The position numbers and the translations under genes were made by a program. This document shows, piece by piece, positions 1,499-9,689 of a DNA stretch of 10,264 bases. Source of the stretch: Chloroflexota bacterium (lineage in GTDB: Bacteria > Chloroflexota > Anaerolineae > 4572-78 > J111); NCBI GenBank assembly GCA_003695455.1, contig RFJF01000696.1:1-10264 (forward strand), read 5' to 3'. The notes under the pieces are model-generated. The model was not told the origin of the DNA. It did not search any database and saw nothing but the letters and a program-made list of their open reading frames with translations. The first letter of the stretch is position 1; every line of letters begins with the position of its first letter.

Positions 1499-3091
1499 AA
1501 AGGTGATTTGCCCGCCGCAGAGTGTCAGACGCGGCGATACCTGCCGCAGATTCTCCGGCGGCACGGCAAAAATATCGTGCGAGAGCAGAACCAGGTCGGC
1601 CAGAAAAGCGGGGCGCACCTGCCCCCGCCGCGATTCCGCAAATTCGGCAAAGGCGGCGTCGCGGGTGTAGCCGGCCAGCGCTTCGGCCAGCGAGGGGCGC
1701 TGGTCCGGCAGGCCGGGCGCCCACGGTTGGCGATTGCGGGCAAAGTACAGTCCGTCGAGGGGGTTGGCCGAAGCCACCGGCCAATCGCTGCCAAACGCCA
1801 GCCGCGCCCCTGCCTGCCTGATGGTCTGCCAGGCAAAACTGCACGCCCAGCGCCCCGGTTCGATTCGCCGCAACCACGGGTCGGGGTCGCTGCCGGTGAG
1901 GGGGGCATGGGCCGGCTGCATGCTGGCAATCACGCCCAGTTGGGCAAAACGGGGCAGGTCGTCGGGGTGAATCAGTTCGATGTGTTCCACCCGGTGGCGG
2001 CTGTCGCGGGGGCCGTTGGCCTGCCGGGCGGCGGCAAACCCGTCGAGCGTGCGGCGCACCGCCCCATCGCCCACGGCGTGAACGGCCATCTGCAAACCCA
2101 GCCGGTCGGCTTCAATCGCCAATTGGTTGAACTCATCCGCGCCAAACAGCGCCCCGCCGCGATTGCCGGGTTGGGCCGGGTACTCATCCACCAGCAGGCC
2201 GGTGTAGGTTTCAATCACGCCATCCATAAAAAATTTGACCAGCCCGCCGCGCACGTTGGCTGTGGAATCCTGCCGCATCTGCACGGCCTCGGCCAGCGCG
2301 TCCGGCGGCGTACCGGGCCGGATGTGCAGGGGCATGTAAACCCGCAGAGGCAGCTCTCCCTGCGATTCCAGCGCGGTCAGCAGGGCCATCTGTTCGGCAT
2401 CGCCGTACATGTTGTGCACGCCGGTCAGCCCCAGCGAGGCGGCAAGTGCGGCCCCCTGCCGCAGCAGTTCCAGCTTGCGGGCGCGGGCCGGCGGCGGAAT
2501 GCGATCCAGCACCAGATTGTACGCGCCCGGCTCCACCAGTTCGCCGGCGGCGGTTCCGTCTGCTTCGCGTTTGATTTGGCTGTTGGGGCCGACCGGCGGC
2601 CGACCGGTGAGCACGTTGGCCCGGCGCAGCGCCTCGGTGTTGGCCCAGGCAGTGTGCCCATCGTACGAAATGAGAACGAGCGGGCGCTCTGCAATGACCG
2701 CGTCGAGTTGGCGGCGGGTGAGGGTTTGCCCCGGCAGCGCCGAGTAGTGCAAGCCGTGCCCCACCAGCCATTCCTGTGCCGGGTGCGCGGCGGCAAATTC
2801 GGCCACCGCCGCCGCCAGTTCCACCGGCGATTCTACCGCGTCCAACTGGATATCGCCCAACGTGTACGAGCCTTGCAGCAGGTGAAAGTGGCTGTCAATA
2901 AATCCCGGCAGCAGCGAGCACTGCCCGGCGTCAATCAGGCGAGTGTGCGGGCCGCGCCACTGCCCGGCATCGGCGTTGCTGCCGACAAAGACAATCTGGT
3001 TGCCGCGCACGGCCACGGCCTCGGCGCGGGGTTGGGCCGGGTTGGCGGTAAATACGCGGGCGTTGGTCAATAAAATATCGGCGTCAGGCAT
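1481..3091 (-). CDS. Amidohydrolase, YtcJ/Amidohydro_3 type
   Basis: This 536-residue metal-dependent hydrolase has the usual length for the YtcJ-like (NfdA-like) branch. The start at 3091 is supported by GAGGAG at 3103-3098, six bases upstream; the frame stays open to 3211, but that part is repeat sequence. An N-terminal beta domain ('MPDADILLTNARVFT') is completed by the C-terminal strands. The TIM-barrel metal-site motifs are all seen: H68-F-H70 in 'GFIDSHFH', K286 in 'VKFFMDG', H338 in 'AVHAVGDGA', H370 in 'HRVEH' and D436 in 'FGSDWP'. K286 is at the place of the bridging carboxylated lysine. Relatives hydrolyse N-substituted formamides or other amide bonds, and the true substrate is unknown for most. 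There is no signal peptide, so it is probably cytoplasmic. It appears to be transcribed alone, with its own terminator. Confidence 0.9.
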   Translation of the reverse strand: MPDADILLTNARVFTANPAQPRAEAVAVRGNQIVFVGSNADAGQWRGPHTRLIDAGQCSLLPGFIDSHFHLLQGSYTLGDIQLDAVESPVELAAAVAEFAAAHPAQEWLVGHGLHYSALPGQTLTRRQLDAVIAERPLVLISYDGHTAWANTEALRRANVLTGRPPVGPNSQIKREADGTAAGELVEPGAYNLVLDRIPPPARARKLELLRQGAALAASLGLTGVHNMYGDAEQMALLTALESQGELPLRVYMPLHIRPGTPPDALAEAVQMRQDSTANVRGGLVKFFMDGVIETYTGLLVDEYPAQPGNRGGALFGADEFNQLAIEADRLGLQMAVHAVGDGAVRRTLDGFAAARQANGPRDSRHRVEHIELIHPDDLPRFAQLGVIASMQPAHAPLTGSDPDPWLRRIEPGRWACSFAWQTIRQAGARLAFGSDWPVASANPLDGLYFARNRQPWAPGLPDQRPSLAEALAGYTRDAAFAEFAESRRGQVRPAFLADLVLLSHDIFAVPPENLRQVSPRLTLCGGQITFESLSG

Positions 3092-3108
3092 GGGCTGCTC
3101 CTCGTATA

Positions 3109-3248
3109 AAATAAAGGGTAAAGGCAAAAGGATGAAGGACAAACTATCGAATGGGCGAATAGTGAACGGCAATGGCAATGTCGCAACCTGCAATCCTGTC
3201 ACGTGCCACACTATCCCTACTCTCTACTTCTTACTCCCTACCACATTT
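3109..3248. repeat. Degenerate heptanucleotide array in the divergent gap
   Basis: Cut into 7-base units from 3109, the gap reads as about 20 successive related heptamers with no break in phase. The first units are of the type GGNNAAA (GGGTAAA, GGCAAAA at 3116-3129). Middle units resemble the GTGAATG family seen elsewhere in the window, and the last ones are TCCCTAC-like (3214-3241, four units). The consensus changes along the array while the spacing holds. It fills most of the space between the amidohydrolase start (3091) and the dioxygenase-like gene (3329). Confidence 0.7.
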
Positions 3249-3251
3249 TAC

Positions 3252-3280
3252 TTGAATTTTGCCGGATTGCCGATAATAAT
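3252..3280 (+). promoter_or_regulatory. Possible sigma70-type promoter for the dioxygenase-like gene
   Basis: TTGAAT (3252-3257) and AATAAT (3275-3280) are separated by 17 bases, matching four and five of six consensus positions respectively. The pair lies just past the heptamer array and about 50 bases before the ATG at 3329. It is a prediction from consensus only. Confidence 0.4.
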
Positions 3281-3328
3281 ATCCACAGATGAGCAAAAAC
3301 GCCACGCGCTCACCGGGGACGAATTACC

Positions 3329-4009
3329 ATGCAATCTCTGCAAACTGTGCTGTTTTTTGTGCTTGGGCTGGCGGGGCTGGTGGGAATGACCCTGTGGGCC
3401 GACCGCGTGACCGAGCCGCTGGACCCGCTCTCGCCGGGGATGAAAACGGCCACCGCGCTGGCCGTTCTGCCGACCCCCACCTTTGCCGCGCCGAATTCGT
3501 GCCGCACCACCCCCGGCAGTTTTGACTTTGGCTACCTGCCCCACGCACCACTGACCACCACCCTGGCCCCGCCCTTTGCCGGCGGCACGCCGCTGGTCAT
3601 TTCCGGCACACTCTACGCCAATGATTGTACCACTCCCCTGCCGGGTGTGCAGATCGATGTGTGGCAGGTGGATGAAACCGGCCGCTACGATCAAAGCATT
3701 CCCTACACCTACCGCGCCAGATTCCGCACCGACGCCGCCGGCCATTTTGAACTGCGCACTGTCAAACCTGCTCCGTACGTGGTCAACCGGGAAGTTCAGC
3801 CGGCGCACATCCACTTTCGGGTGGATCACCCCGGCCTGCGCCGCCCGTTTGGCGCAGAACTTCACTTTGCCGATGACCCGCTCATTCCGCCCCGCTACCA
3901 CAAATACTTCGAGCCGGTGGCCTCGCTGAACCAGACCCGTACCCCCGCCGGACCGGCGCTGCAAACGCGGTTTGATATTGTGCTGGCGGTTCCGCCGCCC
4001 GCCCCGTAA
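3329..4009 (+). CDS. Membrane-anchored or secreted intradiol ring-cleavage dioxygenase-like protein
   Basis: The product has 226 residues. ATG 3329 is the most upstream usable start, with a modest GGGGA at 3315-3319. A hydrophobic N-terminus (about residues 4-24, 'LQTVLFFVLGLAGLVGM') suggests a signal anchor. A Thr/Pro-rich linker follows, then the intradiol dioxygenase beta-sandwich from about residue 85 ('GGTPLVISGTLYANDC'). All four ferric iron ligands of the family can be placed: Y120 in 'DETGRYD', Y150 in 'KPAPYVV', and H160 and H162 in 'AHIHF'. Characterised members open catechol or protocatechuate rings between the hydroxyls using Fe(III) and O2. Here the arginine normally three residues before the first His ('RPAHIHF') is Gln157. 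A cell-surface location and no neighbouring aromatic pathway genes argue against a classical catechol pathway role. The fold is confident; activity and substrate are open. Confidence 0.75.
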   Translation: MQSLQTVLFFVLGLAGLVGMTLWADRVTEPLDPLSPGMKTATALAVLPTPTFAAPNSCRTTPGSFDFGYLPHAPLTTTLAPPFAGGTPLVISGTLYANDCTTPLPGVQIDVWQVDETGRYDQSIPYTYRARFRTDAAGHFELRTVKPAPYVVNREVQPAHIHFRVDHPGLRRPFGAELHFADDPLIPPRYHKYFEPVASLNQTRTPAGPALQTRFDIVLAVPPPAP

Positions 4010-4048
4010 ATTTGCCCATTCCCCACCCCGCTTTTATAGTAGCGTTGA

Positions 4049-4153
4049 GTCATTTGCCACCGGTCACTCGCCACTTGTCAATTGATGACCGGCGGCTGAC
4101 ATCTGTATTCTGTACTCTGTATTCTGGACTCTGGACTCTGGACTCTGAATTAA
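4049..4153. repeat. Heptanucleotide array abutting the glycosyltransferase start codon
   Basis: Fifteen consecutive 7-base units run from 4049 to 4153 in one phase, and every unit begins with G. The first part alternates GTCACTC- and GCCACTT-like units. The second part is GTATTCT- and GGACTCT-like, with three identical GGACTCT copies at 4126-4146. The last unit takes in the A of the ATG at 4153. The frame of the following gene stays open through the array, but I do not regard it as coding. Confidence 0.8.
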
Positions 4154-5274
4154 TGAACATTGCTCTGGCCCACGACTGGCTGAACCAGATGGGCGGCGCG
4201 GAAAACGTGCTGGAAGAACTGGTGGAAATGTATCCCGGCGCGCCGGTTTTCACCACCATTTACGGCCCGGAACAGATGCCCGCCGGCTACCGGGATTGGG
4301 ACATCCGCACCGCGTGGCTCAACCGCGCTCCGGCCATTCACACCCGTCACCAGCCCTATTTGCCGTTCTACCCCGCCGCCGTCCGCAGTCTGGATTTTTC
4401 CGGCTTTGACGTGATTCTCTCCAACAAAAGCGGCTTCATCCACGGCCTGCGCCACACATCGCGCCAGTTGCACATTTGCTACTGTCTGGCCCCCACCCGC
4501 TACGTCTGGACCTACGGCGACTACGCCCGCCGCGAAGGCTTTGGCCGCTGGTTGGGCGCGGCTATTTCGCCGCTGATTGGCGGCCTGCGCCGCTGGGATT
4601 ATCGGGCCGCACAGCCCACCCCGCCCGGCGGCAACCGCGGCGTGGACCACTTCATCGCCATTTCACGCGATATTCAACAGCGCATCAAAACCTACTACGG
4701 CCGCGATTCGGTGGTGATTTACCCGCCGGTCAACACCGACCGCTTTCAACCGGTGCGCAGCCCCACCGCCGATTACTACCTGGTAGTGTCGCGGCTCATC
4801 CCCTACAAGCGGATTGATTTGGCCGTGCAGGCCTTCAGCCAAATGAACAAACGGCTGGTGGTGGTGGGCGATGGGCGTGACCGGGCGCAACTGCAAGCCA
4901 TGGCCGGGCCGTCGGTGGAGTTCCGGGGCCGCCTGCCGTGGAGCGAGGTGGTGGAATTGATGGCCAACTGCCGCGCCTTCCTCTTCCCCGGATTTGAGGA
5001 CTTTGGCATTGCCCCGGTTGAGGCACAGGCCGCCGGCCGCCCGGTGATTGCCTTTGCCCGCGGCGGCGCGCTGGATACCGTGGTTGAGGGGTTGACCGGC
5101 CTTTTCTTCCGCGAGCAATCGGCGGCGGCGCTGGCCGCGGCGGTGGAAAAATTTGAGACGCTCTCGTTTGAGCCGTCCGTCATCCGCCGCAACGCCGAGC
5201 GCTTCAGCCACCATCGTTTCCGGCGGGAACTGGCCGATTTTGTGGCCGCCGCGTGGGAATCGTTTGCCGGTTGA
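4153..5274 (+). CDS. GT4 family glycosyltransferase (WbaZ-like)
   Basis: The product has 373 residues and should have a GT-B fold. I chose ATG 4153 because homologues begin with 'MNIALAHDWLNQMGGAE'; the frame upstream is only repeat DNA. The N-terminal acceptor domain contains the glycine-rich 'MGGAENVLEEL' (13-23). The C-terminal nucleotide-sugar domain starts near residue 205, with 'YYLVVSRLIPYKRIDLAVQAF' carrying K219. The retaining GT4 signature E-x7-E is E282 and E290 in 'FEDFGIAPVEAQAAGRPV'. The enzyme would transfer a sugar, mannose in the WbaZ type, from a nucleotide donor to a lipid-linked glycan at the cytoplasmic membrane face. It is the first gene of the polysaccharide cluster. 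No Shine-Dalgarno sequence precedes the start, because the upstream bases are heptamer repeat. Donor and acceptor cannot be read from the sequence. Confidence 0.88.
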   Translation: MNIALAHDWLNQMGGAENVLEELVEMYPGAPVFTTIYGPEQMPAGYRDWDIRTAWLNRAPAIHTRHQPYLPFYPAAVRSLDFSGFDVILSNKSGFIHGLRHTSRQLHICYCLAPTRYVWTYGDYARREGFGRWLGAAISPLIGGLRRWDYRAAQPTPPGGNRGVDHFIAISRDIQQRIKTYYGRDSVVIYPPVNTDRFQPVRSPTADYYLVVSRLIPYKRIDLAVQAFSQMNKRLVVVGDGRDRAQLQAMAGPSVEFRGRLPWSEVVELMANCRAFLFPGFEDFGIAPVEAQAAGRPVIAFARGGALDTVVEGLTGLFFREQSAAALAAAVEKFETLSFEPSVIRRNAERFSHHRFRRELADFVAAAWESFAG

Positions 5275-5277
5275 ATT

Positions 5278-5305
5278 TTGAACATACCGGGATTTCGCTT
5301 ATACT
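5278..5305 (+). promoter_or_regulatory. Probable sigma70-type promoter of the chain-length/kinase genes
   Basis: TTGAAC (5278-5283) and TATACT (5300-5305) are spaced by 16 bases; the -10 matches five of six positions. The -35 begins four bases after the glycosyltransferase stop. This would start a transcript with a leader of about 80 bases before the ATG at 5391. Within the leader, a GC-rich 6-base-pair hairpin (5328-5333 with 5345-5350) can form. Confidence 0.45.
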
Positions 5306-5390
5306 GTGTTTTTGCAACTCCGCCAATCGCCGGATGACTCCGGCCCGGCGGTGTGTTACACTGAAAACGCTGTTTACACATGGAATCAAC

Positions 5391-6077
5391 ATGGAACTGA
5401 AACAGTACGCGCAGATTGTCTGGAAACGCATCTGGATTCCGGTGGCGCTGGTGGTGCTGGTGGGCGCGGTTAGCCTGCTCACGGCCAAAACGCCGCCGCC
5501 CGGCTACAGCACCAGCATGCGCTTTACCGTGGGGGTTCGGCCGCAGGAAGTGCCGGGCCAATTCAATTACGATAGCTACTACGCCTGGCTCTCCTCGGAA
5601 TATCTGGTGGATGATATGACCGGGCTGGTCAGCAGCCAGATGTTTGCCGACGACGTGAACCGCCATCTGCAAGAGATGGGCAGCGCGGCGCAAATTCCGC
5701 CGGGCAGCATCGGCGGGGTGACCATTGGCGGCAAACAGCACCGCATTTTGAGCCTGACCGTCAACTGGGGCAACCCCGATGAACTGGCCGATATTGCGCA
5801 GGCCATTGTAACCACCATGGAGCAGGACAGCACCCACTATCTGGGCCAGTTGGGTACGCCCGGCGCGCTCATTCAGGTGATTGACGAACCTTCACCGCCG
5901 GCGCAGAATCCGCGCTCGCTGACCCAGCAGCTGGATTTGCCGGTGCGGCTGCTGCTGGCCGCCGTCGCCGGCGTTGCGCTCGCCTTTTTGCTGGATTATC
6001 TGGACACCAGCGTGCGCGGCAAAAATGAACTGGAAGCAATGGGCATTTCCGTGCTGGCCGAAGTGCCGAAACAATGA
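5391..6077 (+). CDS. Wzz/CpsC-type chain-length determinant protein (first copy)
   Basis: The product has 228 residues, close in size to Gram-positive CpsC/CapA adaptors and far shorter than Wzc. The first membrane helix is about residues 14-31 ('IPVALVVLVGAVSLL'), followed by an extracytoplasmic domain of about 150 residues. The Pro-rich pre-membrane motif 'EPSPPAQNPRSL' (166-176) is followed by the second helix, about 185-203. A short tail, 'LDYLDTSVRGKNELEAMGISVLAEVP', is like the segment that joins Wzz to its kinase. This architecture marks polysaccharide co-polymerases, which set glycan chain length and activate the partner BY-kinase. ATG 5391 was chosen because 'MELKQYAQIVWKR' is the usual family start; upstream codons overlap the glycosyltransferase gene and the promoter. 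The Shine-Dalgarno match is poor. It is followed after 73 bases by a second adaptor gene. Confidence 0.8.
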   Translation: MELKQYAQIVWKRIWIPVALVVLVGAVSLLTAKTPPPGYSTSMRFTVGVRPQEVPGQFNYDSYYAWLSSEYLVDDMTGLVSSQMFADDVNRHLQEMGSAAQIPPGSIGGVTIGGKQHRILSLTVNWGNPDELADIAQAIVTTMEQDSTHYLGQLGTPGALIQVIDEPSPPAQNPRSLTQQLDLPVRLLLAAVAGVALAFLLDYLDTSVRGKNELEAMGISVLAEVPKQ

Positions 6078-6113
6078 ACAATGAGCAATTATCAATAACG
6101 AATGACGAATAAA
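6072..6113. repeat. Short heptanucleotide array between the two adaptor genes
   Basis: Six units in one phase (CAATGAA, CAATGAG, later GAATGAC and GAATAAA) follow a consensus of (C/G)AATNAN. The first unit contains the TGA stop (6075-6077) of the upstream gene, so the array begins inside the last codons. The units resemble the GTGAATG family at 7558-7599. Confidence 0.65.
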
Positions 6114-6150
6114 GGTTGGCCGCAGAGAGAACAGAACAGAGGACAGAATC

Positions 6151-6882
6151 ATGGAAATTAGCGATTATTTACGCATACTGCGCAAACGGGGCTGGATTAT
6201 CATTGTGGTGGCCCTGATTGCCGGAGCCAGCGCCTACGCCTTCAGCAAAATGCAAACGCCTATTTACAGCGCCACGGTCAAACTGAGTGTGGTTCCCGCC
6301 CGCGCCACCGACTGGGGTTCCAGCAACAGCCTGAAAGATTTGCTGCGCAACTACGCCGAAAGCATCACCACCCACACCATGGCCCAGGAAGTGATTGACC
6401 GCGCCCAGCTCGACATGGACACCTCTACCTTTCTCAGCCGCCTCTTTGTCAACCCCGATAGCTCCACCTTTACCCTGGCCATTGAAGCCCGGGACCGCGA
6501 CCCGGAAGTGGCAATGGGCATGGTGGATATGATGGCCAAAGTATTTGCCGAAGACCGCGACCAGTGGAACCAGAAACAGGACAAACGTGACCGCATCGAG
6601 GTGAAAATGCTGGACAGCGTTTACAATCTGGGCTACCAGCAATATTCGCCCAAAACGCAAATCAACACCCTGGCCGGGCTGCTCTTTGGCGCGCTGGTGG
6701 GCGTGCTGGTCATCTTCTTTCTTGAATGGCTGGAAATGGATGTTATCCGCACCGCGGAAGACGTGGAACGCGCCATTGACGTGACGGTACTGGGTGCCGT
6801 GCCACCCGCCCCCGGCGATAAACCCGCCTCTGCCGGCAAAAAACAGCGCCGGCTGGCGCCCGGTTTGCGCGGCGCCAACTAA
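6151..6882 (+). CDS. Wzz/CpsC-type chain-length determinant protein (second copy)
   Basis: The product has 243 residues. The start at ATG 6151 is supported by AGAGGA at 6138-6143. Order of parts: the cytoplasmic 'MEISDYLRILRKRGW', which is the typical Wzz opening; first membrane helix, about 14-32; extracytoplasmic domain 33-170; second membrane helix, about 172-192 ('NTLAGLLFGALVGVLVIFFLEWL'); and a cytoplasmic tail to 243 rich in Lys/Arg/Pro. 'EWLEMDVIRTAEDVERAIDVTVLGAVP' is the characteristic post-membrane signature that leads to the kinase domain in fused proteins. The Pro-rich motif before the second helix is reduced to 'YSPKTQ'. It differs strongly from the first copy, so this is an old duplication or a heteromeric pair. 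It lies 18 bases before the kinase gene and is surely co-transcribed with it. The likely role is to anchor and activate the kinase and control polymer length. Confidence 0.85.
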   Translation: MEISDYLRILRKRGWIIIVVALIAGASAYAFSKMQTPIYSATVKLSVVPARATDWGSSNSLKDLLRNYAESITTHTMAQEVIDRAQLDMDTSTFLSRLFVNPDSSTFTLAIEARDRDPEVAMGMVDMMAKVFAEDRDQWNQKQDKRDRIEVKMLDSVYNLGYQQYSPKTQINTLAGLLFGALVGVLVIFFLEWLEMDVIRTAEDVERAIDVTVLGAVPPAPGDKPASAGKKQRRLAPGLRGAN

Positions 6883-6900
6883 CCAACTTCGGAGAATTTT

Positions 6901-7557
6901 ATGCCCAGCGATGCTATTATTACCCTGACCGACCCCCGCTCGAGTGCGGCCGAAGCCTACCGCACCCTGCGCACCAACATTGAATTTTCCAGCGTGGATG
7001 CCAAACTGCACACCCTACTGGTCACATCCTCTGCCCCCACCGGCGACAAAAGCACTGCCGTCGCCAATCTGGCCGTGGCCATGGCCGACGGCGGCCGCCG
7101 CGTGATTCTGGTGGATGCCGACCTGCGCCGTCCTGCCCAGCACACGCTGTTTGACCTGCCCAACGAGCAGGGCTTTTCCAGCCTGTTCAAAGACGAGACC
7201 GCCTTCAACGCGCCGCCGCTGCACAGCGTACCCAACACCAGCTTGCAGGTGCTGACCAGCGGCCCGCTGCCGCCCATCCCCAGCCAGCTTTTGGCCTCGC
7301 AAAAAATGGGCGCAGTCATTAAAAAACTGGCCGGCCTGGCCGAAATGGTCATTTTTGACGCGCCGCCCGTCATCGCCGTCAACGATGCCTCGCTGCTGGC
7401 CTCAAATGTAGATGGCGTGCTGCTGGTGGTGCGCGCCGGCAGCACCAAACGCGACCACGTAAAGGCCGCCAAAGATCGGCTTGAAAAAGTGAACGCCCGG
7501 CTCATCGGCGCGGTGCTGACCCACGCCCACGTTGATTCGGCTCTCCAGTACAGCTAA
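6901..7557 (+). CDS. CpsD/CapB-type BY-kinase (tyrosine-protein kinase/ATPase) of polysaccharide export
   Basis: The product has 218 residues, a stand-alone cytoplasmic kinase domain of CpsD/CapB length. The start is ATG 6901, with GGAGA at 6891-6895. An E-x2-R-x2-R oligomerisation motif is present at E18, R21 and R24 in 'EAYRTLRTNIEF'. The P-loop segment is 'SSAPTGDKSTAVANLA' (43-58), with K50. Walker A' is 'VILVDADLRRP' (68-78) and Walker B is 'MVIFDAPPV' (149-157). In family members the residue before the P-loop Lys is Gly; here it is Asp49. The tyrosine cluster normally found at the C-terminus is reduced to a single Tyr217 ('LQYS'). Such kinases cycle between a ring and phosphorylated monomers to control polymer synthesis with the Wzz/CpsC partner encoded just upstream. 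The family call is firm, but kinase competence is uncertain because of the two departures. Confidence 0.85.
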   Translation: MPSDAIITLTDPRSSAAEAYRTLRTNIEFSSVDAKLHTLLVTSSAPTGDKSTAVANLAVAMADGGRRVILVDADLRRPAQHTLFDLPNEQGFSSLFKDETAFNAPPLHSVPNTSLQVLTSGPLPPIPSQLLASQKMGAVIKKLAGLAEMVIFDAPPVIAVNDASLLASNVDGVLLVVRAGSTKRDHVKAAKDRLEKVNARLIGAVLTHAHVDSALQYS

Positions 7558-7599
7558 TGAATGGTGAATGGCGGATTGCGAATAGTGAATGGCAAATGG
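7558..7599. repeat. Heptanucleotide array, YGAATGG units, left arm
   Basis: Six units in perfect 7-base phase begin on the base after the kinase stop codon (7555-7557). Three are TGAATGG and the others differ by one to three bases (CGGATTG, CGAATAG, CAAATGG). A stretch at 7578-7593 matches 3155-3170 at 15 of 16 bases. It is complementary to the array at 7799-7854. Confidence 0.75.
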
Positions 7600-7668
7600 C
7601 GCGGGGACAAAAATGGGCGTGCAGAGTCGCTATTTGTATATTCCACATTCACACAGTTTACCGGCCGG

Positions 7669-7698
7669 GAGACCCTTCGCTGCGCTCAGGGTGACACG
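7669..7698. repeat. REP-like imperfect palindromic element
   Basis: The stretch GAGACCCTTCGC...GCGCTCAGGGTGACA forms an imperfect hairpin, ACCCT (7672-7676) with AGGGT (7688-7692), plus two inner G-C pairs. From memory, closely similar CCTTCGCTGCGCTCAGG strings are dispersed in the intergenic DNA of many unrelated bacterial genomes. That recollection needs a search to confirm. Confidence 0.4.
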
Positions 7699-7750
7699 CC
7701 TGAGACTCACCCCCTAATTCCTGACTCCCGCCCCCTGAATCCTGTTTTCA
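7699..7750. repeat. CCTGACT-type heptamer array containing a 34-base repeat (copy 1)
   Basis: Seven units from 7699 to 7747 keep one phase, most beginning CCT (CCTGAGA, CCTAATT, CCTGACT, CCTGAAT, CCTGTTT). Bases 7717-7750 are identical to 9139-9172 in another gap. Confidence 0.8.
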
Positions 7751-7798
7751 GAGGAGTCGGACATTCCCTTTGGAACGACAAAGCAAGTTTTGACGCTC

Positions 7799-7854
7799 CA
7801 TTGAATGTATTTCATTCACAATTTGCAATTGACAATTCACAATTCACCATTTTC
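7799..7854. repeat. Heptanucleotide array, AATTCAC units, right arm
   Basis: Eight units in one phase follow a consensus AATTCAC/CATTCAC, two of them exactly AATTCAC (7834-7847). This is the reverse complement of the GTGAATG unit at 7558-7599, and bases 7842-7851 pair exactly with 7560-7569. It ends directly at the rmlA ribosome-binding site. Confidence 0.75.
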
Positions 7855-7870
7855 AGGGGAGGCTTTTCAA

Positions 7871-8953
7871 ATGAAAGGACTGATTTTAAGCGGCGGCAAA
7901 GGCACGCGCCTCTACCCGCTCACTTTTACCAGCGCCAAACAACTGATTCCGGTGGCCAACAAACCGGTGCTGTTCCGGGTGATTGAATCCATCCGCGATG
8001 CCGGCATTACCGACATCGGCATTGTGGTGGGCGACACCGCCGAGGAGATCAAACGCGCTGTGGGGCGCGGCGGCAGGTGGGGGGTGAACATCACCTACAT
8101 TCCGCAGGATGCGCCGCTGGGGCTGGCCCACGCCGTCAAAATTTCAGAGGATTTTTTGGGCGATGACCGCTTTGTGATGTTTTTGGGCGATAACGTGATT
8201 CAGGGCGGCATCAGCCCGTTGATTGCCCAGTTTGCAGAAAGCGATTACAACAGCCAGATTGTGCTGACCCGCGTGGAACAGCCGGAGCAGTACGGCGTGG
8301 CCGTGCTGGACGACAACAACCGGATTGTCAAACTGATTGAAAAACCCAAAGAACCGCCCAGCGATCTGGCGCTGGTGGGCATTTACATGTTCGATGCCAA
8401 CATTTTCAAGGCGGTCAACGCCATCAAGCCCAGTTGGCGCGGCGAACTTGAAATTACCGACGCCATTCAATGGCTGGTGGAAAATGAGTACAACGTCTAC
8501 CCATACGTGCATCGCGGCTGGTGGATTGACACCGGCCGCCCCGGTGAAATGCTGGAAGCCAACAGTCTGGTGCTTGAGGAACTGACCCCCAAAATTGAGG
8601 GTTACGTAGACCGCGACAGCGAGGTAGACAGTCGCGTGACGGTGGAAAAAGGTGCAGAAATCATCAACAGCGTGGTCCGCGGCCCGGCCATTATTGGCAA
8701 AGACACCCGGCTGGTGAACGCCTACGTGGGGCCGTTTACCAGCATCAGCCACCACTGCCTGCTTGAAAACGCCGAAATTTCGCGCTCAATTGTGCTGGAA
8801 AACAGCCAGATTCGCAACATTAACCGCCGGATTGAAGACAGCCTGATTGGCCGCAATGTGGTCCTCCACCGTTCGCCCATTCGGCCGCGCGCCTACAAAT
8901 TTGTGCTGGGCGACCACTCGCACGTGGGCCTGCTGGGTGAAGGCGGCGAGTAA
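7871..8953 (+). CDS. rmlA: Glucose-1-phosphate thymidylyltransferase, long form
   Basis: The product has 360 residues, which fits the long (StrD-like) RmlA form rather than the roughly 290-residue enterobacterial form. The start at ATG 7871 is set by AGGGGAGG at 7855-7862; the frame is open further upstream only through repeats. The nucleotidyltransferase domain (1-235) shows 'GGKGTRLYPLT' (8-18), K23 in 'SAKQLIPVANKP', the metal-binding 'LGDN' (105-108), 'EKP' (157-159), 'GELEITD' (191-197) and 'WWIDTGRPGEM' (217-227). A left-handed beta-helix of hexapeptide-like repeats fills about 245-335. It makes dTDP-glucose from glucose-1-phosphate and dTTP, the entry to dTDP-rhamnose and other dTDP-6-deoxysugars. 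It fits the polysaccharide context, although RmlB, C and D are not in the window. Long-form proteins can also serve antibiotic sugar pathways, but nothing here suggests that. Confidence 0.92.
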   Translation: MKGLILSGGKGTRLYPLTFTSAKQLIPVANKPVLFRVIESIRDAGITDIGIVVGDTAEEIKRAVGRGGRWGVNITYIPQDAPLGLAHAVKISEDFLGDDRFVMFLGDNVIQGGISPLIAQFAESDYNSQIVLTRVEQPEQYGVAVLDDNNRIVKLIEKPKEPPSDLALVGIYMFDANIFKAVNAIKPSWRGELEITDAIQWLVENEYNVYPYVHRGWWIDTGRPGEMLEANSLVLEELTPKIEGYVDRDSEVDSRVTVEKGAEIINSVVRGPAIIGKDTRLVNAYVGPFTSISHHCLLENAEISRSIVLENSQIRNINRRIEDSLIGRNVVLHRSPIRPRAYKFVLGDHSHVGLLGEGGE

Positions 8954-8966
8954 CCTCGGCGTTTTT
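8944..8966 (+). terminator. Possible weak terminator at the end of rmlA
   Basis: Bases 8944-8950 pair with 8955-8961 (six of seven pairs, one G-G mismatch) around a TAAC tetraloop containing most of the stop codon, and five T follow (8962-8966). The form is right for an intrinsic terminator, but the stem is short and imperfect. Confidence 0.4.
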
Positions 8967-8989
8967 CCCAAACATAACTCACACTCAAT

Positions 8990-9020
8990 TTGGGATAAAT
9001 TGGGATAAATTTGGGATAAA
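8990..9020. repeat. Three direct copies of TTGGGATAAA
   Basis: Units lie at 8990-8999, 9000-9009 and 9010-9020, the last with one extra T. They are nearly identical, so the spacing is one helical turn, unlike the 7-base arrays nearby. Operator or iteron-like binding sites are possible, but no regulator is visible. Confidence 0.6.
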
Positions 9021-9023
9021 AAG

Positions 9024-9083
9024 AAGTACGGAGTAAGGATTACGGAGTAGGCCAATTACTTTTTACTCCCTAATCCTTACTCC
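9024..9083. repeat. Inverted pair of heptamer arrays forming a long hairpin
   Basis: AGTACGG-like units on the left (9024-9051) and TTACTCC-like units on the right (9063-9083) are complementary. Bases 9030-9049 pair with 9064-9083 at 19 of 20 positions (C9043-C9070 mismatch) around a 14-base loop. There is no T run on the + strand after the hairpin. Confidence 0.8.
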
Positions 9084-9134
9084 CCGGCACGTACAATTTG
9101 CTTCCACAGTTTACACACTTTTGGCTGAAAAGCA

Positions 9135-9172
9135 CCTGATTCCTGACTCCCGCCCCCTGAATCCTGTTTTCA
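9135..9172. repeat. CCTGACT-type heptamer array (copy 2 of the 34-base repeat)
   Basis: Five units (CCTGATT, CCTGACT, CCCGCCC, CCTGAAT, CCTGTTT) in one phase. Bases 9139-9172 are identical to 7717-7750. The element ends 16 bases before the next start codon. Confidence 0.8.
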
Positions 9173-9188
9173 ACAAAGTTGAGCCGCC

Positions 9189-9689
9189 ATGGACGTTCAA
9201 ATTATCCGCAGCGCCAAACGCAAAAAAACAGTCAGCGCCCGAATGGTTGACGGCGTGTTTGTGGTGCGCGCTCCGGCCCGCATGTCAGACGCGGAACTGC
9301 AACCCATCATCAAAAACCTGCAACTGCGATTGCAGCGCCGGCAGCAAAAATCGGCACTGGACGACGCGGCGCTGGAGCGCCGCGCGCAGGAACTGAACCG
9401 CCGCTATTTTGGCGGCAAACTGCACTGGGAATCCATTCGCTGGGTGAGCAATCAGAATAAAAGCCGCATTGGAAGCTGCACCCCCACTAACGGAACCATC
9501 CGGCTCTCGCACCGGCTGGCAGAGATGCCCGCCTTTGTGCGCGATTACGTGATTGTCCACGAACTGGCGCACCTGCTCCAGGCCAACCACGGCCCCAAAT
9601 TCTGGAAGCTGGTCAACCGTTACCCCAAAACTGAGCGAGCGCGGGGCTATTTGATGGCGGTAGGTCTGGAAAAAATTGAGGAAAATTAG
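9189..9689 (+). CDS. YgjP/DUF45-family zinc metallopeptidase-like protein
   Basis: The product has 166 residues. The start at ATG 9189 agrees with the family's opening pattern ('IIRSAKRKKTVSARMVDGVFVVRAP'), but there is no clear ribosome-binding site. The C-terminal half holds the metalloprotease core: 'SRIGSCTPTNGTIRLSHRL' (92-110), where most relatives have a Trp before GSC, then H124-E125-L-A-H128 in 'YVIVHELAHLL', and H134 in 'NHGPKFW' as probable third zinc ligand. All three zinc ligands and the catalytic Glu are present, so activity is plausible. It is shorter than E. coli YgjP because the N-terminal part is reduced. The cellular role of this family is poorly known; relatives often sit alone or near restriction systems. 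No signal peptide is seen. It seems unrelated to the polysaccharide genes around it. Confidence 0.85.
   Translation: MDVQIIRSAKRKKTVSARMVDGVFVVRAPARMSDAELQPIIKNLQLRLQRRQQKSALDDAALERRAQELNRRYFGGKLHWESIRWVSNQNKSRIGSCTPTNGTIRLSHRLAEMPAFVRDYVIVHELAHLLQANHGPKFWKLVNRYPKTERARGYLMAVGLEKIEEN

Follow-up and report, generated by a model that had tools for sequence, protein, structure and literature searches.

Cyanobacterial repeats are reportedly the subject of Mazel (1990) and Elhai (2008). Although bacterial heptamer repeats were recognized decades ago, there is no agreement on their origin or role (PMC4692102, PMC4679880). The short tandemly repeated repetitive (STRR) sequences and long simple sequence repeats (LSSR) of cyanobacteria and Xanthomonas, with units such as GGGAATC in Xanthomonas and GGGGAYT in Nostoc, are intergenic, partly degenerate heptamer arrays present many times per genome, and inverted pairs were noted in Xanthomonas (PMC4692102). 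The TAACTGA repeats of Beggiatoaceae form arrays in one orientation just upstream of start codons, and are start-directed without a ribosome-binding site (RBS) in 132 of 170 cases and with one in 15 (PMC4679880). Within the Chloroflexota, (GATAGRA)n satellites are scattered over the Chloroflexus aurantiacus genome (PMC6749651). Geobacter metallireducens has multicopy elements of four or five heptanucleotides, GGGACCG x4 and MTYCTGA x5 (PMC2700814). Here we analyze the intergenic heptanucleotide arrays of a 10,264-nt stretch of a Chloroflexota bacterium (assembly GCA_003695455.1, contig RFJF01000696.1, our C124; hereafter the window), whose fragmented genome comprises 4.4 Mb in 929 contigs and is 87% complete. 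At least three of these arrays are the repeat-bearing parts of small non-coding dispersed elements that lie before start codons.

These arrays share with the STRR/LSSR a tandem 7-nt excess over chance and confinement to intergenic DNA, but a single unit does not make up the whole feature: several units occur per genome, unlike units stand in fixed order, and the stretches tied to elements hold them inside dispersed pieces of ~105-120 bp that end in a Shine-Dalgarno (SD) sequence. In contrast to the single-unit Beggiatoaceae arrays, the SD here follows the array. The C. aurantiacus satellites are a single species-specific family, and the Geobacter elements lie both within and between genes; the available parts of PMC6749651 and PMC2700814 describe no link to start codons and no docking on them, respectively. 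In a literature of mostly open-access coverage we found no heptad elements docked on SD sequences in Chloroflexota.

The lag-7 periodicity that a sequence-only reading had described in the window gaps was confirmed against dinucleotide-preserving shuffles. Pooled gaps of at least 30 bp had a lag-7 identity of 0.377 vs. 0.253 in shuffles (z 9.5), with harmonics at lags 14 (z 7.7), 21 (z 6.9) and 28 (z 4.4), while every other lag from 2 to 30 stayed at or below z 2.7 (lag 2 being highest). The genes, which that reading held to be free of the period, gave z -2.6 at lag 7 and raised lags at multiples of 3 only; an excess over shuffles was thus present and not shared by coding DNA, the two points on which the reading had staked itself. 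Five of the seven gaps of at least 30 bp lay above all 500 shuffles, and gaps 398-502 and 5275-5391 showed no lag-7 signal (reached by 315 of 500 shuffles). All eight stretches named by that reading exceeded their shuffles, with z values flattered by the choice of the stretches by eye: 5.2 (3109-3248), 8.4 (4049-4153), 5.5 (6072-6113), 5.2 (7558-7599), 2.8 (7699-7747), 3.6 (7799-7854), 5.3 (9024-9083) and 4.2 (9135-9169). Tandem Repeats Finder reported period 7 at five of the eight. Three details of that reading need correction: 3109-3248 is a mosaic instead of a single array without a break, positions 6070-6077 fall inside the end of the preceding gene, and 9024-9083 is built as a palindrome.

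The evidence for dispersal comes from matches of window positions 7600-7757 in the own genome. Among 118 first-look candidates 40 were scored and all 40 matched (the query itself included), the 39 others with 81-96% identity, as a rule over query positions 54-157; such own-genome counts are lower bounds, because several own contigs (C3, C5, C9, C208, C301, C302 and others) are masked entirely to N. The matches define an element of ~105 bp that terminates in a TTTTCA-like sequence plus GGAG. In 23 of the 30 copies read with their flanks (one being the window copy and two having the same flanks), a start codon that opens a frame of 60 codons or more lies 2-10 nt past the element end; looking outward from the left end, the opposite way, gives 5/30, and random positions in the same loci give 28%. 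The genes behind these 23 copies are apparently unrelated, as judged by eye from their translations without a family search. The hairpin half of the element was found 38 times in the own genome, 11 times in G001 (same genus), four times in G016, once in G025 and never in the reversed control. A 28-nt block made of four unlike heptads in fixed order occurs at 58 own places, 44 in G001 and one in G004, with none in the other 28 genomes or in the reversed control. Of these 103 places we read 30, and by our gene caller the block lies within 45 nt before a start codon in 9/15 own, 12/14 G001 and 1/1 G004 cases, usually at 18-22 nt; in G001 the sequence upstream of the block varies while its distance to the start is constant. 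Identity between units of the same index was 0.93, against 0.67 (own) and 0.76 (G001) between units of different index, a contrast helped by the way in which the copies were picked.

Further families share this plan. The box TTTTATACGAGGAG (at most one mismatch) has 15 own places, 11 of them exact, against two for the reversed control, and 14 of the 15 lead within 3-13 nt to a start codon that opens a frame of 85 codons or more; TTTATCC heptads plus this box constitute a second own family, and the box also follows AATCGCT, CCTGATT and TTACTCC heptads. A TTTTCA/TTTTATAC box accompanied 8/24, 2/18, 3/25 and 3/18 start-near arrays in four genomes, compared with 4/164, 10/254, 7/240 and 3/126 genes without an array (pooled, 16/85 vs. 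24/784); in cyanobacteria it was found at 0/10 start-near arrays and 4/197 genes without one. The box TATTTTCARRGGAG-N3-9-ATG is present in 15 of 31 genomes and has no match when reversed. At 30 of its sites picked blind to repeats, the 56 nt upstream gave a lag-7 z of 7.4, with lags 3 (z 5.2) and 14 (z 3.1) raised too. In the sister genus, to which G006 (same family as the own genome) and G010 belong, a GTCTACC heptad block precedes TATTTT in 80 copies in G006 and 53 in G010, with five in G019, two in G009, none in the other 27 genomes and none reversed. The sequence CTGACTCCTGACTCCTGA (at most one mismatch) gave 204 matches in 15 of 301 Chloroflexota genomes (14 of them in the own genome), and its reversed control gave 27 in seven, so this family is patchy and its control non-empty. 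A single genome, G090, holds 159 places of CTGACTCCTGACTCCTGA, and most of the phylum has none.

The full plan is clearest in the relatives, where a left end of ~38 bp, TGTTCAYGAGCCTNNGGCRCACCACCRAYAATGAAAAT, is followed by a variable payload, often a palindrome or a single arm of heptads, and by a right end, TATTTTCA or TATTTACA, then RAGGAG, with the start codon a few nt further on. Some leaders have an upstream left end finishing in TGAAAAT, the reverse complement of ATTTTCA; TGAAAAT lies upstream of 4/21 boxed genes vs. 25/826 other genes. In stacks, the left end directly follows the previous GGAG, and locus L376 has three leaders in series. A search of 31 genomes for the left end found 54 places in four (15 in G003, 23 in G006, 15 in G010 and one in G019) and none reversed; the own copies carry, by eye, a left-end variant, CTGCGGCACRGCAACGAGAATGAAAAT. 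We read 40 of the 54 sites (15 in G003, 21 in G006, four in G010). A start codon whose frame stays open as far as the piece extends follows 13/15 sites in G003, 11/21 in G006 and 2/4 in G010; in the other direction the counts are 0/15, 4/21 and 0/4. A recount that accepted any SD plus start codon included 26 of the 40 sites, an SD-like tetramer stands immediately left of the left end at 31, and 25 payloads hold a lag-7 segment. The payloads of G006 and G010 vary: some hold heptads of the types TGACACG, CTGACTA, GACCGGG or CGGCGGT, and others are long plain hairpins. We rejected the idea that the left end is a small gene (MSLRHTTDNEN-like), as several copies have ACG in place of ATG.

Thirteen of the 15 G003 sites (all except L411 and L421) align as a near-identical element of ~120 bp, ATAGGAG ... 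AGAGGAG, with a TCATCAT palindrome payload and unlike flanks. Like repetitive extragenic palindromes (REP), bacterial interspersed mosaic elements (BIME) and miniature inverted-repeat transposable elements (MITE), the cassettes are short, non-coding, palindromic, multicopy and intergenic (PMC2817692, PMC6006769), and the aligned G003 copies and the own element show the near-identity and unique flanks expected of a MITE. However, terminal inverted repeats are absent by eye, the G003 ends ATAGGAGTTAAC and TTTACAGAGGAG not being inverted and the inverted part being confined to an inner TGAAAAT/ATTTTCA-like bracket. AGGAG-like sequences stand at both ends and may be a target-site duplication, but ATAGGAG on the left and AGAGGAG on the right hardly vary among copies and so look like the element's own sequence. 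By eye, the hairpin foot carries TGAAAAT/ATTTTCA and the ends carry AGGAG, and the REP guide tetranucleotide GT[AG]G is not found there. The other foot sequence, the docking on an SD, the exchangeable heptad payload and the lack of any transposase found in 3.08 Mb of partial sequence set the cassettes apart from REP, BIME and MITE.

The repeat-bearing features of the window are as follows.
3098 to 3143, minus strand: leader of the amidohydrolase gene, with TTTATCC-type heptads (3116-3143), then TTTATTTTATAC and GAGGAG (3098-3115); the start codon ends at 3091.
3211 to 3242, plus strand: TACTCCC-type heptads that precede the dioxygenase-like gene; four further places in the own genome match window 3214-3241.
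4102 to 4147, plus strand: TCTGTAT/TCTGGAC array whose end lies 5 nt upstream of where the glycosyltransferase gene starts (start codon 4153); Tandem Repeats Finder period 7.
6070 to 6112, plus strand: AACAATG/ACGAATG array at the stop codon of the preceding gene (end 6077); Tandem Repeats Finder period 7; not tied to a cassette.
7558 to 7600, plus strand: TGAATGG-type array directly 3' of a stop codon, with 7813-7851 as a loose inverted counterpart; not tied to a cassette.
7653 to 7757, plus strand: copy of the ~105-bp dispersed element, with the GACCCTTCGCTGCGCTCAGGGT part, the heptad block (7710-7744) and TTTTCAGAGGAG (7745-7756).
7813 to 7862, plus strand: leader of the sugar nucleotidyltransferase gene (start 7871), with ATTCACA-type heptads (7813-7848), then ATTTTCAGGGGAGG (7849-7862).
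9030 to 9083, plus strand: palindrome with GGAGTAA-type heptad arms (9030-9049 and 9064-9083, 95% complementary); not tied to a cassette.
9135 to 9183, plus strand: second copy of the heptad block (9135-9166), then TTTTCA (9167) and a weak SD; the YgjP-like gene starts at 9189.

The stretches that form the repeat-bearing part of dispersed elements, at least three in number, are the start of 3109-3248, 7699-7747 and 9135-9169. Pieces of ~40-50 bp related to the amidohydrolase leader recur at about ten other places, and window 9138-9165, with two mismatches, is one of the 58 own places of the block. By its plan, 7799-7854 is probably a fourth such stretch; the leader at 7813-7862 is assigned by the plan common to other leaders. 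This younger leader separates the copy at 7653-7757 from the downstream gene, and that copy is an old one, because no start codon follows it. The array at 4102-4147 has neither an SD nor a TTTTCA box and is not tied to a cassette; its gap is matched at 22 other own places, nearly all over the array. Predicted RNA folding of six window stretches gave z values of -6.2 (9020-9090), -2.2 (4049-4152), -1.3 (7760-7871), -0.5 (3092-3250), -0.1 (7653-7757) and 0.5 (9100-9188), so that most leaders have no unusual structure. A match of the palindrome (9031-9082) to Rfam mir-4788, at 34.8 bits against a gathering threshold of 91, was set aside as a palindrome artefact, and there was no other Rfam match. 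Pfam assigned the ten window genes tested as ketopantoate reductase-like, amidohydrolase, dioxygenase-like, glycosyltransferase, Wzz, ParA/CbiA-type ATPase, sugar nucleotidyltransferase, YgjP-like metallopeptidase and epimerase, with no match at 1e-5 for the 228-aa product adjoining the Wzz gene (5391-6077). Separately, window 8986-9020 holds (T)TTGGGATAAA in three direct copies, and the orthologous gap of L037, L038 and L040, which follows the nucleotidyltransferase gene, has TTGGGATA/TATCCCAA motifs resembling them; these repeats may therefore be an operator that is conserved for the YgjP-like gene.

Comparison of orthologous gaps illustrates how such leaders change. The upstream DNA of 33 reciprocal best pairs of G006/G010 genes was compared by eye. 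For L044|12 vs. L041|11, the G010 side reads GCTACTTGAT-AAGGAGGATTGTTCACA-ATG and the G006 side has the same ending with a ~95-bp cassette ahead of AAGGAGGATTCTTCACC-ATG, which looks like a filled and an empty site. L225|12 and L238|2 have like ends and an exchanged payload, L209|7 and L041|5 have the same payload with right arms of 34 vs. 41 nt, a difference of one whole unit of the kind that the sequence-only reading had proposed to look for between relatives, and a hairpin is present in one and absent in the other of L044|9 and L041|9; the remaining pairs are mostly without a cassette or beyond judging. A search for empty sites gave 14 hits, none of them usable. By the lag-7 detector, syntenic gaps had arrays in both genomes in 3/13 cases and in one only in 5/13 for G006/G010, in both in 2/4 and in one only in 1/4 for own/G001, in one only in 1/1 for G005/G009, and in 0/11 for three pairs of another genus. 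In all six species compared, the gap that separates the genes at 5391 and 6151 shows, by eye, heptad-like runs with differing units. Upstream of L210|5 in G006, an array of the 15-mer (7+8) GGTAGCAAGGTAACA is long, whereas its G010 counterpart is short; at this site, periods of 7 and 8 bases seem able to replace each other. At L037 11056-11335, in a gap that bears heptads in the window, lies a dispersed-looking TCATTCTGAGCG...CGCTCAGAATGAC-like inverted repeat.

The proposed whole-genome lag comparison, which we ran on samples, found a gap-confined lag-7 excess in the own genome, G001 and G006. In 50 own contigs (arbitrarily numbered, some masked to N, and taken without the window and without ten contigs picked for resemblance to a heptad gap) the 16.9 kb of gaps yielded 20 lag-7 segments, compared with 0.4 in shuffles, and the 153 kb of genes yielded five, the next-ranked lags being 14 (13 segments), 21 (10) and 9 (9). 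In 400 kb each, G001 had 61 segments vs. 1.6 in shuffles and G006 76 vs. 2.6; the strongest lag that is not a multiple of 7 was lag 8 (18 and 30 segments), and because it is raised in both, the period is not everywhere strictly 7. Segments per 100 kb (own/G001/G006) were 218/128/97 in gaps vs. 3.6/9.5/9.4 in genes, with an own set of 47 of 61 contigs (14 masked) that includes the ten chosen for resemblance; arrays occupied 39/114 own gaps of at least 60 bp (contigs partly chosen), 40/179 in G001 and 49/198 in G006. Across 109 other Chloroflexota loci, some overlapping, there were 115 lag-7 segments vs. 13 to 47 at lags 5, 6 and 8-11; the signal is patchy, and many loci have none. All these figures come from home-made gene calls on fragmented bins with some masked contigs, and our search patterns were tuned on these same data.

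Arrays with an inverted partner in the same gap numbered 10/55 (own), 17/52 (G001), 24/66 (G006), 8/79 (other Chloroflexota) and 17/58 (cyanobacterial plasmids), against expectations from other gaps of 1.3, 1.9, 1.0, 0.5 and 2.4; palindrome arms are thus a minority of arrays, well over chance. Direct partners in the same gap numbered 0, 2, 4, 11 and 2, respectively. The five-prime arm was purine-rich in 59 of 81 inverted pairs; we did not build on this, the split being even in G001 and G010. Array densities per kb in tandem/convergent/divergent gaps were 2.27/4.84/0.98 (own), 1.24/1.62/0.66 (G001), 0.89/0.94/0.62 (G006), 0.74/0.25/0.30 (other Chloroflexota) and 1.10/0.42/0.05 (cyanobacteria). 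The coding strand of arrays within 30 nt of a start was pyrimidine-rich in 16/17 own, 11/15 G001, 16/18 G006, 9/14 G010 and 17/30 other cases, and that of array-free leaders in 47-59%.

That several unit types share one period, which the sequence-only reading regarded as the unusual part, is borne out by 151 unit types among 274 Chloroflexota arrays, with 297 coincident pairs vs. 40 when units are shuffled. A putative core GANT/AYTC common to the units suits many of them but was dropped, as CGGTAGA, GCAAGTG and AAGGATA types misfit by eye, and an arm-vs-arm test by register was set aside as biased, register 0 being the best one chosen. The suggested link to cyanobacterial heptanucleotide repeats gains support from six 50-kb cyanobacterial plasmid stretches, which share 67 coincident unit pairs with the Chloroflexota arrays (e.g. 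ACTCCTG, AATTACC, AATTCAC and AATGACC), whereas 500 shuffles gave 16 on average and 38 at most, although the stretches were picked via a match to a window array or an own-genome array, which favors sharing; counted as distinct units, the overlap (12, with a shuffle mean of 9) is unremarkable. In two BLAST searches with arrays, the matching records were cyanobacterial in 5/10 and 15/17 cases (the latter by genus name); the first search had its best match in a Providencia plasmid, and in the second many matches fall within annotated genes.

In our judgment these observations are best explained, with somewhat better than even probability, by non-autonomous leader cassettes that dock on SD sequences and carry exchangeable heptad payloads, with slippage altering unit numbers. 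Copies are many, keep a fixed unit order, dock before start codons in one orientation, form stacks and bear genus-specific heptads on similar right ends; sharp element ends are seen in one genome, and payload exchange and unit-number change in single cases. We propose that copies arrive by copy-and-insert or gene conversion at an SD, and that the terminal AGGAG of the element would leave the gene with an RBS at the right distance. Because the element ends in AGGAG, the RBS would be kept and the site would stay open to the next copy, and hence gaps could grow as stacks. Slippage within the fold-back of the payload would gain or drop whole units, and drift would make the units degenerate. A pyrimidine-rich or hairpin leader by the SD would likely alter translation or mRNA stability of unrelated genes; putative roles as SD mimics (CUCCU) or in S1 binding are plausible.

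A number of points weigh against these cassettes. Half of the window stretches (4/8) have no box and are not tied to a cassette; TGAAAAT lies upstream of only 6/30 boxes; and the left end as typed has no match in the own genome or G001. In G006 a start codon follows only 11/21 left-end sites (other direction 4/21, random windows 17%). Among the 40 sites read, a stricter right-end box is present in 10 and a start codon in only five, and 15 payloads have no lag-7 segment. Taken singly, 6/30 TATTTTCARRGGAG box sites reach the lag-7 threshold, and several others carry plain hairpins. There is only one filled/empty pair, judged by eye. No mover was found: in the 3.08 Mb of partial sequence, tblastn (E up to 1) retrieved no RayT relative and none of the frames carried an HUH-Y motif, which, for partial sequence instead of whole genomes, is weak evidence.

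The sequence-only reading had attributed the arrays to slippage with divergence, or to a process that writes or copies DNA in 7-base steps, acting on intergenic DNA. Local replication slippage, in which arrays grew in place and 7 is a polymerase-favored length (an idea attributed to Mrazek and co-workers 2007 in PMC4692102 and PMC4679880), agrees with the prominence of lag 7 and its multiples alone, in gaps only, with the one orthologous pair that differs by a whole unit and with the 15-mer (7+8) expansion seen in G006 only. It does not account for unlike units in fixed order at 58 and 44 places, for near-identical ~120-bp copies with sharp ends, for docking and orientation, or for 297 unit coincidences vs. 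40. Neither slippage nor a 7-base writer working in each gap separately is supported as the main cause, and elements of ~105 to 120 bp carrying such blocks are dispersed before start codons. We consider slippage improbable; the part that stands is the change of unit number, and slippage may be the cause of the stretches not tied to a cassette. A 7-base writer may have originated the payloads, and no finding here requires one.

Transposition of hairpin cassettes as single strands by an IS200/IS605-like (Y1, HUH) or REP-type transposase, inserting 3' of AGGAG, is one specific form of the cassette explanation and not its opponent. The single orientation, the palindromic payload between TGAAAAT and ATTTTCA, the AGGAG-like sequence at both ends and the stacking fit it, as do the guide tetranucleotides at the foot of REP hairpins (PMC6006769); yet the transposase searches described above were negative in the partial sequence, and REP tetranucleotides are GT[AG]G-like, unlike AGGAG (PMC2817692, PMC6006769), which makes this mechanism doubtful. 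Nor do we think it likely that the leaders are an immobile translation-control motif evolved or kept by selection at many genes. Their position and strand bias would suit such a role, and the start-directed TAACTGA arrays of Beggiatoaceae were interpreted in this way by their author (PMC4679880), but the genes behind the 23 own copies are apparently unrelated by eye, the G003 copies are near-identical beyond any short motif, and similar boxes carry different heptads between genera.

If many heptamer repeats belong to elements of this kind, 5' leaders in these bacteria would be exchanged as whole pieces instead of evolving base by base. More generally, we suggest tentatively, and at long odds, that there are mobile 5' leaders for which the SD is both target and tail. 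Insertion behind AGGAG would re-create the SD at its proper spacing, so that insertions are tolerated, can stack and give unrelated genes a new leader, with an exchangeable central heptad palindrome rewritten in each lineage, possibly in more than one phylum. If many heptamer repeats ride on ribosome-binding sites in this way, their shared period, their many units and their bias toward gene starts would become jointly testable.

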